Shown: positions 61,482 through 63,820 of the stretch, piece after piece
Numbering within the stretch: the stretch's first letter is position 1
How the letters are laid out: the number at the start of each line of letters is the position of its first letter
Assembly: GCA_002336975.1 (NCBI GenBank)
Contig: DDFA01000048.1
Location: forward strand, 1 to 64,000
From: Phyllobacteriaceae bacterium UBA1940
GTDB taxonomy: Bacteria; Pseudomonadota; Alphaproteobacteria; Rhizobiales; Rhizobiaceae
Direction: 5' to 3'
Length of the DNA stretch: 64,000 nucleotides
Program-made: the position numbers and the translations under genes
The notes under the pieces: generated by a model
Told to the model about the DNA's origin: nothing
The model's input: the letters and a program-made list of their open reading frames with translations, nothing else
The model's database searches: none

Positions 61482-61590
61482 GTGTCTCACATAAAGAAAT
61501 TGGGGTTTGCCGGCAACGCCAAACGCCGCCATTGCAGGAGTAACGCCGGGACGCTACTAGATGGGCATCGACGGTCTTCGGCAGCGCATC

Positions 61591-62187
61591 ATGAATCGAC
61601 GTTTGGGATTTTTTGCGGCCATCTCGATGGCTGTCGCCGGTTGCACAAGTTCCTCGTCCAACAATGCGGCGGTGCTCGCCGGCAGCGGCGTGACGCAACT
61701 GGTCGTTTGCCACGGTTTCGATTGCCGCAATCGCACCACACTGGCGCTCGGCGGCGCGGACGCCAGGAAATTCGCCTCGATCATGTCGGGCTCGTCGTCG
61801 GCGGCGGCCGAACGGACCGCCATCGGACGCGCCATCGCCTATTTCGAGCAGCGGTCGACCCAGGCCGTCGGCGTCAAGGACGAGCCCAAGTCGGACATCT
61901 CCCAGTCAGGCCGCCGGGGCCAGATGGATTGCATCGACGAATCGACCAATTCGCGCACGCTGCTGCGCTATCTCGAATCGCGCGGACTGCTGAAATTCCA
62001 CAAGGTTCTCGGCAATGTGTCGCGCGGCTTCTTCGCCGACGGCCGCTACCCGCATTCGACCGCGGTGGTTCAGGATGCGAGCGGCGAGAAATGGGCCGTC
62101 GACAGCTGGTACGAGCCGGCCGGCGGGACGCCTGACATCATGTTGTTGTCGCAATGGCTGAAGCGCGGCGTCATGGGCGTGCGCTGA
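61591..62187 (+). CDS. Hypothetical lipoprotein
   Basis: 198-residue protein. A lipoprotein signal (MNRRLGFFAAISMAVAGC, lipidated Cys at 18) is followed by a Ser-rich linker and a domain with two conserved-looking Cys (VVCHGFDC) and DCIDESTNSRTLL. It is found in rhizobia in similar form, to my memory, with no known role. The start at 61591 is chosen for the lipobox spacing; an ATG at 61561 is in frame. It is divergent from trmFO. Confidence 0.75.
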   Translation: MNRRLGFFAAISMAVAGCTSSSSNNAAVLAGSGVTQLVVCHGFDCRNRTTLALGGADARKFASIMSGSSSAAAERTAIGRAIAYFEQRSTQAVGVKDEPKSDISQSGRRGQMDCIDESTNSRTLLRYLESRGLLKFHKVLGNVSRGFFADGRYPHSTAVVQDASGEKWAVDSWYEPAGGTPDIMLLSQWLKRGVMGVR

Positions 62188-62230: not shown

Positions 62231-62270
62231 GCGAAACACCCGCCGGGGGAGGAGATCCGGCGGGTGTCGC
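62231..62270 (-). ncRNA. CcsR/cuckoo-type hairpin C
   Basis: Stem ACACCCGCCGG (62236-62246) / CCGGCGGGTGT (62257-62267), extended by GCG/CGC across a two-base bulge. On the minus strand the 10-nt loop reads ATCTCCTCCC. It is the third and last of a tandem series downstream of the DUF1127 gene and the most stable, so it may also end the transcript. Confidence 0.7.
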
Positions 62271-62278
62271 TTGTAACA

Positions 62279-62309
62279 AGCCGCGTTCGGGAGGAGGTGA
62301 ACAGCGGCT
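62279..62309 (-). ncRNA. CcsR/cuckoo-type hairpin B
   Basis: Two-part stem: GCCGC (62280-62284) / GCGGC (62304-62308) and GTTC (62285-62288) / GAAC (62299-62302), with one bulged base. The minus-strand loop is ACCTCCTCCC, identical to that of hairpin A although the stems differ. The loop complements the Shine-Dalgarno consensus, the hallmark of CcsR small RNAs. Confidence 0.75.
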
Positions 62310-62312
62310 CTA

Positions 62313-62348
62313 TCTCGATTGGCCTGGGAGGAGGTAGGCCGGTCGAGA
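62313..62348 (-). ncRNA. CcsR/cuckoo-type hairpin A
   Basis: Upper stem GGCCT (62321-62325) / AGGCC (62336-62340), lower stem TCTCGA/TCGAGA (62313-62318 and 62343-62348) with a 2x2 internal mismatch on the minus strand. The minus-strand loop is ACCTCCTCCC. It begins 12 nt after the DUF1127 stop. Confidence 0.75.
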
Positions 62349-62360
62349 ATTCATGCTACG

Positions 62361-62501
62361 TCAGACTGCCTTGCGGGCGACGTAGGGAATTTCGCTGCGA
62401 TTGATGCCCAGGTCGGACAGTTCGCGGTTCGACAGGCGGTTCAGCTCGGAGACGGTCTCGCGGTAGCGGCGCCAGTTGCGGTAGTTGCGGATGATGTTCA
62501 T
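62361..62501 (-). CDS. DUF1127 small basic protein
   Basis: 46-residue Arg-rich protein: a basic N-terminus (RNYRNWRRYRET) and the DUF1127 motif VSELNRLSNRELSDLGINRS. Such small proteins bind RNA in alphaproteobacteria; the Rhodobacter sphaeroides homologue (CcaF1) is co-transcribed with CcsR small RNAs and influences their processing. The three CCTCCTCCC hairpins directly downstream reproduce that arrangement. The ATG at 62501 begins the domain; the upstream frame extends to 62606 without a ribosome site. Confidence 0.9.
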   Translation of the reverse strand: MNIIRNYRNWRRYRETVSELNRLSNRELSDLGINRSEIPYVARKAV

Positions 62502-62554
62502 TATCGGTCTCGTTTCGTCTTTGCTTCTGAATTCGTCAATTCTTGTATGAGCTG

Positions 62555-62584
62555 AAGATAGGTCGGGCCGTTCCCGCTTTGAAG
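62555..62584 (-). promoter_or_regulatory. Possible RpoH-type promoter of the DUF1127-small RNA unit
   Basis: On the minus strand CTTCAA (62579-62584) lies 16 nt before CCTATCTT (62555-62562). This resembles the alphaproteobacterial heat-shock sigma pattern CTTGAA-N17-CCTATNT, with one mismatch in the -35. It is about 54 nt upstream of the DUF1127 start. Confidence 0.35.
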
Positions 62585-62725
62585 AGGTAATGTTGCATGA
62601 CAGCATTGCAGATTGTGCATTGCAACATTAACGAGACCTTAATGTGCGGCGACGGCTTGACCACCGTCGAGAAATCGCCGTTTTGTTGACAAGGCTTGAC
62701 GTCGGCGGGAGCCGGGAGGAAGCAG

Positions 62726-63820
62726 GTGGCCTATCTCGATAAACTTGGCGCTGACGTCGCCAGATGGCAGGGCAAGGGGTTGCTGAGCGCCGAGCAGGCG
62801 TCGATCCTCGTCGCCGAAGCGCGCGACAATCATCGCTCCGGCATCGGCATCGGCTCGGTGCTGGCGATTCTTGCCGGCCTGTTGCTGGCCGCGGCGATCC
62901 TCATCTTCATCGCGGCGAACTGGGAGGCGATCCCGCGGCTCTGGCGGGTCGCGGCGCTGTTTGCGCTGCTCGCGGCGAGCTATCTCGGCGGCGCGCTTCT
63001 CAAGCTCAACGGGCAGGACGGCTTTGCCGAATCCGCCTGGCTGGTGGGCGCCGCGACCTTCGGCGGCGCGATCGCGCTGATCGGCCAGATGTACCACATG
63101 AGCGGCGACGAGACCCAGGCGATCCTGGTCTGGTGCCTCGGCGCGGCGGTTGCCGCGGCGGCGCTCCGCTCGCCGGCGCTGACCATCGCCGCGGTGGTGC
63201 TGGCGATGCTGTGGGGCGTGTGGCCGGCCTACAGTATTTTCCGGTTCGACGCGCCGCTCGGCTATTTGCCGCTCGCCGCAGCGCTGTGGGCCATCGCCAT
63301 GTGGACCCGGTCGATCTCGGCGCGATACCTGATCCTGCTGTCGCTGATCCCCTATGCGATCCTGCTCTACTTGCAGCACGACAATATCGTTCTCCTTATT
63401 GCGCTGACCCTTGTCTCGGCAGGCTTGTTCGCCGCGGTGATCCTTGCCGGCGACATGGTGGAACAACTGATCGGGCTCGGCGGCGGATTGGCGTCGGTCG
63501 CGCTGATCGGCGTCTTTTCGGGACTGGTGGCGCTGCAGGCCGTGTTCGCCGACACGGGTCATTTTCTCTGGCTGTCGATCGTCGCGCTGGCGGCGTCGAT
63601 TGCGGCGCTTGCCTACGGCGGCCGGCTTGGCCGCGGCGTCAGGTGGCTGGCCTACGCCGCCTTCGCCGTCGAAATCGCGCTGATCTATCTGCAGACCGTC
63701 GGTTCGATGCTTGGCACCGCCGGGTTCTTCCTTGTCGCCGCGCTTGGCCTGGGCCTGCTGGCGTTCTTCATCATCCGCATCGAGCGGCGAATGGCCGTAT
63801 CGGCGCAGGGAGGTTCGTGA
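62726..63820 (+). CDS. DUF2157 domain membrane protein
   Basis: 364-residue polytopic protein with about eleven helices. The N-terminal soluble segment (about 1-45, WQGKGLLSAEQASILVAE) is the DUF2157 signature, followed by SVLAILAGLLLAAAILIFIA. Function unknown. It is typically next to a GDYXXLXY-domain gene, as here. The start is a GTG at 62726 with GGGAGGA about 5-6 nt upstream; an ATG does not fit. The stop overlaps the next start (TGATG). Confidence 0.88.
   Translation: MAYLDKLGADVARWQGKGLLSAEQASILVAEARDNHRSGIGIGSVLAILAGLLLAAAILIFIAANWEAIPRLWRVAALFALLAASYLGGALLKLNGQDGFAESAWLVGAATFGGAIALIGQMYHMSGDETQAILVWCLGAAVAAAALRSPALTIAAVVLAMLWGVWPAYSIFRFDAPLGYLPLAAALWAIAMWTRSISARYLILLSLIPYAILLYLQHDNIVLLIALTLVSAGLFAAVILAGDMVEQLIGLGGGLASVALIGVFSGLVALQAVFADTGHFLWLSIVALAASIAALAYGGRLGRGVRWLAYAAFAVEIALIYLQTVGSMLGTAGFFLVAALGLGLLAFFIIRIERRMAVSAQGGS

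Follow-up and report, generated by a model that had tools for sequence, protein, structure and literature searches.

A DUF1127-linked ar14-type anti-Shine-Dalgarno RNA in a Rhizobiaceae genome and its predicted LsrB/VtlR-type promoter with an overlapping PhaR-like site

Introduction

Which kind of small RNA (sRNA) is formed by the three hairpins that follow a 46-codon DUF1127 gene on the minus strand of the window (the whole 64,000-nt stretch of DNA that was analyzed), and under whose control would it be produced? The original prediction assigned the hairpins to a three-copy version of the CcsR RNAs of Rhodobacter sphaeroides and counted them among the anti-Shine-Dalgarno (aSD) RNAs of the "cuckoo" group. 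It inferred a Hyphomicrobiales genome as their host and selection acting on near-identical loops carried by unrelated stems.

CcsR RNAs of R. sphaeroides carry aSD loops, and RNAs of the ar14 type are about 123-nt, Hfq-independent transcripts. The ar14 family (Rfam RF02344; Sinorhizobium meliloti Smr14C2) was founded by NfeR1 of S. meliloti, an RNA of three hairpins whose stems differ strongly but whose CCUCCUCCC aSD motifs are ultraconserved and identical (PMC10746234). CcsR RNAs are reported to be produced from an RpoHI/RpoHII promoter, their linkage with DUF1127 genes is in print as the "CIN1 locus", and the protein CcaF1 is described as involved in CcsR maturation (PMC10253847).

The regulators relevant to this study have been characterized in related bacteria. 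The nfeR1 promoter of S. meliloti has CTTAGAC-N17-CTATAT as its core and is bound by LsrB near TGCA-N6-GCAT (-72 to -60); LsrB activates nfeR1 and is required for its expression in free-living cells, and NtrC represses it (PMC10746234). VtlR is the Brucella name of LsrB (PMC11975290). Its reported binding sequence is CAATGCAGCCATGCA, and deletion of vtlR in B. melitensis lowers three DUF1127 transcripts about 17-, 50-, and 100-fold (PMC12595884). VtlR also binds and activates atu1667, the orthologue of two of the three Brucella DUF1127 genes, and the account of this gene leaves open whether Atu1667 is an sRNA (PMC7486931). The PhaR-binding consensus of Bradyrhizobium diazoefficiens is TGCRNYGCASMA, and phasins are strongly derepressed there without PhaR (PMC6201568).

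Results

Locus structure and RNA identity

On the minus strand, read 5' to 3', the DUF1127 gene (62501-62361) is followed by three hairpins between 62348 and 62236. The gene encodes a small protein of 46 aa, nine of them arginines (62361..62501, minus strand; Pfam PF06568, 60.5 bits versus a cut-off of 23.3). Folding of the minus strand gave exactly three hairpins with different stems and with the 10-nt loops ACCUCCUCCC, ACCUCCUCCC, and AUCUCCUCCC; the fold of the array has an energy of -56.6 kcal/mol (z -6.4), and none of 200 shuffles was as low. By sequence and folding, hairpin 1 occupies 62313..62348 (minus strand; loop ACCTCCTCCC, aSD CCTCCTCCC at 62326-62334) and hairpin 2 occupies 62278..62310 (minus strand; loop ACCTCCTCCC, aSD CCTCCTCCC at 62289-62297), while hairpin 3, located by folding at 62236..62267 (minus strand; loop ATCTCCTCCC at 62247-62256), has a GC-rich stem followed by a T-rich stretch and is a probable terminator. 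The CCTCCTCCC 9-mer occurs twice in the window versus 0.52 expected, and 8 of 100 shuffles reach two occurrences; the 9-mer by itself is therefore weak, and the strength rests on the array. Sequence, folding, and Pfam agree on three minus-strand hairpins with near-identical 10-nt loops behind a 46-codon DUF1127 gene, which confirms that this initial observation was correct and not due to chance.

A divergent DUF2157 membrane protein gene (62726..63820, plus strand; Pfam and fetched loci of relatives) is a conserved neighbor. On the other side, trmFO and the ar14 RNA are separated by a 208-aa reading frame with no Pfam match (61561-62187, plus strand), which runs convergently to the RNA.

A covariance search had been proposed as a check of the original prediction, and cmscan of the window against Rfam identified RF02344 (ar14) at 62231..62353 on the minus strand with 80.3 bits (gathering score 58.8, E = 7e-13). 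The match is full length (model 1-123 of 123), spans all three hairpins, and starts 7 nt after the DUF1127 stop codon, so that a same-strand DUF1127 gene lies directly upstream, as in the CIN1 type. Two of the unpaired aSD motifs in the loops are CCUCCUCCC and the third is UCUCCUCCC, one base off; stems 1-2 vary and stem 3 is conserved. Judged from these features, the RNA is a canonical three-hairpin ar14/NfeR1/"cuckoo" RNA. Hence, the assignment to the cuckoo-group aSD sRNAs in a Hyphomicrobiales genome was borne out by the Rfam match, as was the placement of such an RNA behind a DUF1127 gene, whereas the three-copy CcsR version was rejected because the three hairpins are accounted for by a single full-length ar14 match.

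The genome of the window, a draft of 144 contigs that is 81% complete, contains four ar14 matches, three of them above the cut-off. The strongest in the genome, on contig C88 (L001 1134-1625; 102.8 bits), carries four aSD motifs, one of them beyond the extent of the Rfam match, and has a DUF1127 gene 220 nt upstream with a terminator-like hairpin in between. The copy on C42 (L003 1501-1616; 78.6 bits) is standalone, shows an exact TGCA-N6-GCAT box 64 nt ahead of the model start, and sits, as read by eye, downstream of an apparent tRNA gene. The copy on C53 (L004 1501-1602; 50.6 bits, below the gathering score) lies directly 3' of a phasin-like gene. Across 61 genomes (the window's own and 60 relatives), a match at E <= 0.001 was found in 45 and a match above the cut-off in 37. 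Six copies are reported for S. meliloti (PMC7143759), and several copies per genome are therefore usual. Longer tandem arrays were also observed: L114 (G029 C12) is a long tandem aSD hairpin array with 11 CTCCTCCC motifs around the cluster, and the tandem aSD arrays of L197 and L224 contain 9 and 12 TCCTCCC within 900 nt, respectively.

Conservation of loops and stems

The locus is kept in all six same-genus genomes, and the triple array pattern was not found in 237 of 239 other genomes, a class sample without further members of the window's family; the two matches in that sample are apparently repeats in protein-coding sequence, as judged by eye. In an alignment of 12 RNAs from 11 genomes, which we chose from the DUF1127-linked set, 27 of 30 loop columns are invariant; among stem columns, the figure is 4 of 44 for hairpins 1-2 and 22 of 28 for hairpin 3. 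When the window's structure was imposed on the 10 distinct rows of the alignment, 17 of 36 pairs were changed on both sides, which none of 500 shuffles reached, and slid structures scored lower. Under the window's structure, 75% of the cells are paired overall and 57% in hairpin 2, the pairing being incomplete because stems are offset between species. Independently, RNAalifold gave two-sided change in 14 of 30 pairs.

The loops are thus under selection, in line with the original prediction, and the outcome that it had named as speaking against it, namely loss of the loops with retention of the stems, is contradicted by the 12 aligned RNAs, which keep the loops while stems 1-2 drift. The stems are indeed unrelated between the hairpins and, for hairpins 1-2, across species, but not in the case of hairpin 3, the stem of which is conserved. 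The 32 DUF1127-linked loci comprise 27 with three or more CTCCTCCC motifs and five with one or two (G007, G010, G016, one of the two in G022, and G034). Some loops in this set are shortened, and loops decay in some relatives.

Host genes of ar14-type arrays

The search yielded 140 RF02344 hits, 127 of which were fetched, forming 103 clusters in 38 genomes; the 13 left out were weak and most lay outside the family. A DUF1127 gene ends <=90 nt upstream of the cluster in 32 of the 103, the remaining 71 being otherwise placed. Eleven further ar14-type clusters lie 2-29 nt behind a gene with a phasin-like C-terminus (L004 1501-1602, i.e., the C53 copy of the window's own genome, G000, together with L105, L108, L084, L097, L081, L119, L089, L102, L123, and L116); these hosts were chosen by eye, a strict pattern recovers nine of them, and Pfam on one gave Phasin_2. 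Phasin mRNAs are therefore seen as a second host class for ar14-type arrays. Nothing relevant on a phasin-linked anti-Shine-Dalgarno sRNA was found in a literature search that did not pair PhaR with ar14, NfeR1, or DUF1127.

Loci fetched through the neighboring DUF2157 gene contain a DUF1127 gene with aSD motifs behind it in 29 of 30 cases, the exception being a partial gammaproteobacterial hit. G034 and L125 are apparently one genome, and this set therefore overlaps with the relatives found by the ar14 search. L151, a record labeled Bacillus subtilis strain SK6B4, has a VtlR-like box as in Pseudochrobactrum loci, and its label is probably wrong.

These distributions bear on whether the hairpins could be a mere stability or terminator element of the DUF1127 mRNA, devoid of any action in trans. 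Their position immediately 3' of the stop codon and the terminator-like character of hairpin 3 would suit such a role, but stems 1-2 have drifted, with compensatory changes, around conserved loops, aSD arrays occur elsewhere too (71 of 103 clusters, 11 of those behind phasin genes), and NfeR1, a member of the same family, acts in trans (PMC10746234). We therefore consider a purely structural role very improbable and treat the array as a trans-acting RNA candidate below.

LsrB/VtlR-type box and core promoter

A sigma-70-like promoter, CTTCAA-N17-CTATCT, is located at 62556..62584 on the minus strand, with a predicted start near 62549. At about -70 from this start lies an LsrB-type box, TGCA-CAATCT-GCAA (62606..62619, minus strand), in which the final T of the published GCAT (TGCA-N6-GCAT) is replaced by A; in both sequence and distance the box resembles the published sites of the LsrB/VtlR regulon. 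It is accompanied by a VtlR-like 15-mer, CAATGCTGTCATGCA (62594..62608, minus strand), with two mismatches to the VtlR-binding CAATGCAGCCATGCA.

Counts for the promoter elements use published motifs or new genomes, and a position matrix trained on the scored loci was not relied on. The VtlR 15-mer is unremarkable in the window as a whole. With <=3 mismatches allowed, it precedes 21 of the 32 DUF1127-linked loci and occurs in 9 of 640 first-order Markov sequences and in none of the 32 reversed sequences; <=4 mismatches are reached by 68 of 640 Markov sequences. Seven of the 32 loci have it only at >=5 mismatches; in two of these, which have tandem DUF1127 genes, the extracted region was too short. 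In the set of 70 other clusters, from which L114 (array at a contig end, no usable upstream sequence) was excluded, the 15-mer occurs upstream with <=3 mismatches in 23 and in none of the reversed sequences (0/70). Considering the first DUF1127 gene of each of the 29 DUF2157-fetched loci, 18 have <=3 mismatches, nine have four, and two have five.

The window's genome has both a phaR gene and an lsrB/vtlR-like gene. The neighborhood of the latter consists of a trxB fragment truncated by a contig end (212.7 bits versus a full-length cut-off of 343.45), the LysR gene, and an ar15/AbcR RNA; the order trxB, LysR (vtlR), abcR is reported for A. tumefaciens (PMC7486931). The promoter of the genome's own abcR (L173) shows the VtlR 15-mer only at five mismatches, though abcR genes are reported VtlR targets; the looser GCAnnGCnGnnATGC form is present there, as read by eye.

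A separate promoter for the RNA, a feature of NfeR1 and not part of the Rfam model, was also considered and is unsupported: the TGCA-N6-GCA box lies upstream of DUF1127, approximately 266 nt before the RNA, with none just before the RNA, and nearly all DUF1127-linked loci having a box carry it upstream of DUF1127 and not of the RNA. With the divergent DUF2157 gene approximately 100 nt away, the LsrB-type box might act on that gene.

The promoter may also set the locus apart from the CcsR/CcaF1 locus of Rhodobacter, which is RpoH-driven and would make the array part of a general response to oxidative and heat stress. The gene order, a DUF1127 gene followed by aSD hairpins, is identical and the CIN1 association has been stated (PMC10253847), but the conserved promoter here is sigma-70-like with LsrB/VtlR-type sites, and the ar14 model fits at full length; we therefore regard a CcsR/CcaF1 locus as an unlikely interpretation. 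With LsrB/VtlR- and PhaR-type sites at a sigma-70-like promoter, as opposed to RpoHI/RpoHII, stress control predicted from the promoter sequence may differ from that of CcsR.

PhaR-like site and composite pattern

An exact match to the PhaR consensus TGCRNYGCASMA, TGCAATGCACAA at 62613..62624 on the minus strand, overlaps the LsrB-type box by 7 bases, placing the promoter among candidates for the PhaR regulon. Of the 32 DUF1127-linked loci, 24 have the exact consensus in their upstream region, 21 of them on the sense strand, compared with 9 of 960 Markov sequences and none of the 32 reversed ones. All 11 phasin hosts also have it upstream, and it lies <=140 nt from 25 of the 70 other clusters (reversed 0/70). 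In the whole window, two exact sites were found versus 1.24 expected; as both motifs are unremarkable window-wide, their weight comes from position and conservation and not from rarity.

The composite pattern, defined as the PhaR consensus, a 3-base spacer, and the VtlR core, was searched in 151 family genomes and gave 50 sites in 49 genomes, with none for the reversed pattern; 102 genomes have no exact site, and a near-miss form (one extra spacer base, S for G at one position) was found in one of the 151. Forty-six of the 50 sites precede DUF1127, three lead directly into an aSD array (L211, L217, and L218), and one does neither. A DUF1127 gene was detected downstream of 45 sites, in 44 cases with aSD motifs behind it; in the 46th case, L194, the contig ends inside the DUF1127 reading frame, as read by eye. 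Genomes not used to derive the pattern contribute 38 of the 50 sites (34 before DUF1127, three before arrays, one neither). In the 44 composite loci, the box has a mean of 1.66 bits, a value partly fixed by the search pattern, CTATcT has 1.27, and the surroundings have 0.37-0.50; both CTT and CTATcT of the promoter are conserved. Two individual sites depart from the common arrangement: L216 (G034 C12 near 791323) shows a composite site and a DUF1127 gene with no aSD array behind it, and L185 (G321 C17 near 72046), alone among the 50, is followed neither by DUF1127 nor by an aSD array.

Co-occurrence with phaR

The phaR gene (PF07879) is present in 17 of the 29 DUF2157-fetched relatives. The PhaR-like half on the sense strand is exact in 15 of these 17 genomes and has one mismatch in two, and in the 12 genomes without phaR it has two mismatches in two and three in ten. 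A PhaR-like half at <=1 mismatch is associated with phaR (Fisher 2e-8), with clade as a confounder; the one-mismatch class is soft, since a VtlR half can by itself come that close to the PhaR consensus. The 12 genomes without phaR (Brucella, Ochrobactrum, Falsochrobactrum, Paenochrobactrum, Pseudochrobactrum, and two with doubtful or generic labels) are essentially one clade, and loss of phaR and of the site may therefore be one event. They carry the VtlR-like 15-mer with 2-3 mismatches in six cases and with four in the other six. Elsewhere, G022 and G032 have neither phaR nor the exact site; G003 and G036 have the exact site with phaR undetected, in fragmented assemblies of 780 and 140 contigs, respectively; and phaR is present without an exact sense-strand site in G007, G016, G021, G046, G051, and two of the three G024 paralogues.

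LysR proteins often use two T-N11-A half sites. As read from the sequence, T-N11-A fits both halves of the box, including the PhaR-like TGCATTGCACAA half, and for this reason the PhaR-like 12-mer could belong to an extended LysR site. The whole 30-bp box would then be an extended LsrB/VtlR site serving the same RNA and operon, with a coincidental match to the PhaR consensus, which is a serious rival to PhaR gating, given that LsrB and VtlR control of such promoters is experimentally known and that several genomes have a VtlR half differing from the PhaR consensus by no more than one base. Two observations speak against it. All 11 phasin hosts have a 12-mer of this form upstream, and the phaR-less genomes keep the VtlR-like 15-mer (2-4 mismatches) while the PhaR-like half has two or more mismatches in 12 of 12, a comparison that is confounded and in which four mismatches are near chance. 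We hold the extended LysR site to be possible, albeit rather doubtful, and retain PhaR gating in the model discussed below.

Discussion

We propose that a single transcript, activated by LsrB/VtlR and probably gated by PhaR, is likely to encode both a DUF1127 protein and an aSD riboregulator. The model starts from the observed family, structure, conservation, gene order, DNA sites, and regulator genes; its transcription, processing, binding, and target steps, which we infer, would proceed as follows. A minus-strand transcription unit would start from the sigma-70-type promoter near 62549, be activated by the redox-responsive LysR regulator LsrB/VtlR, and be gated, probably, by the PHB-sensing PhaR at the overlapping site; by analogy with phasins, PhaR would act as a repressor. 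The transcript, predicted to be approximately 320 nt long and to end at hairpin 3, would serve as mRNA for the 46-aa DUF1127 protein, with the ar14 RNA forming its 3' portion, probably freed by RNase E with the aid of the DUF1127 protein, as suggested for CcaF1. Base pairing of the three aSD loops to G-rich Shine-Dalgarno stretches would then block the translation of target mRNAs, ABC transporters and ntrB being the candidate targets by analogy with NfeR1.

The RNWUU motif, used here as a check for RNase E processing, occurs within 30 nt of the stop codon in 20 of 32 loci, a count made without a control. RNA binding by DUF1127 proteins is disputed: those of A. tumefaciens reportedly act through PhoR, and no RNA binding is seen for Salmonella YjiS (PMC12501420). 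Self-silencing of DUF1127 by its own loops was also considered and seems unlikely: GGAGG is absent from 31 of 32 leaders, and pairing of the window's leader reaches only -3.0 kcal/mol, values obtained without a control gene set.

Compared with known systems, the locus shares with ar14/NfeR1 the three hairpins, CCUCCUCCC loops, and variable stems, the LsrB-type box near -70, and a -35-N17-CTATxT promoter. It differs in that the RNA lies directly behind DUF1127 and the box precedes this gene, in combination with a PhaR-like site. CcsR1-4 with CcaF1 of R. sphaeroides ("CIN1" type) likewise consist of a small DUF1127 gene followed by same-strand RNAs, but comprise four RNAs under RpoHI/RpoHII, in contrast to one ar14 RNA with an LsrB/VtlR-type promoter here. 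The VtlR-activated genes Brucella BAB1_0914, BAB2_0512, and BAB2_0574 and Agrobacterium atu1667 resemble the locus in combining a small DUF1127-type gene with a VtlR site; an array behind them is not mentioned in the sections of the reports concerned with these genes (PMC12595884, PMC7486931), whereas aSD motifs are present in 29 of the 30 relatives' loci examined here. The RNA and its DUF1127 linkage are both of known kinds, the RNA being a further member of a curated family. Less expected are the composite promoter and the phasin-hosted copies, which we do not claim to be unpublished.

We tentatively extend the model to PHB-storing Rhizobiaceae in general, an extension that we consider conceivable but somewhat less than probable. 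The DUF1127-ar14 operon would be a coincidence gate, activated by LsrB/VtlR and repressed by PhaR, which is freed when PHB granules form. Together with ar14-type arrays in the 3' UTRs of PhaR-controlled phasin mRNAs, aSD RNAs would be an output of carbon-storage status, lowering the translation of strongly Shine-Dalgarno-dependent mRNAs, such as those of nutrient transporters; lineages that lost phaR would have lost the PhaR half of the box and kept the VtlR half.

The locus thus offers a concrete regulatory hypothesis for a widespread and poorly understood pair, small DUF1127 proteins, the RNA- or protein-binding role of which is debated, and aSD RNAs. Should aSD arrays prove general in the 3' UTRs of DUF1127 transcripts driven by VtlR/LsrB, the RNA may account for part of the phenotypes assigned to the protein or the regulator. 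The composite PhaR/LsrB site, if true, would link redox state and carbon storage to a translation-level brake.
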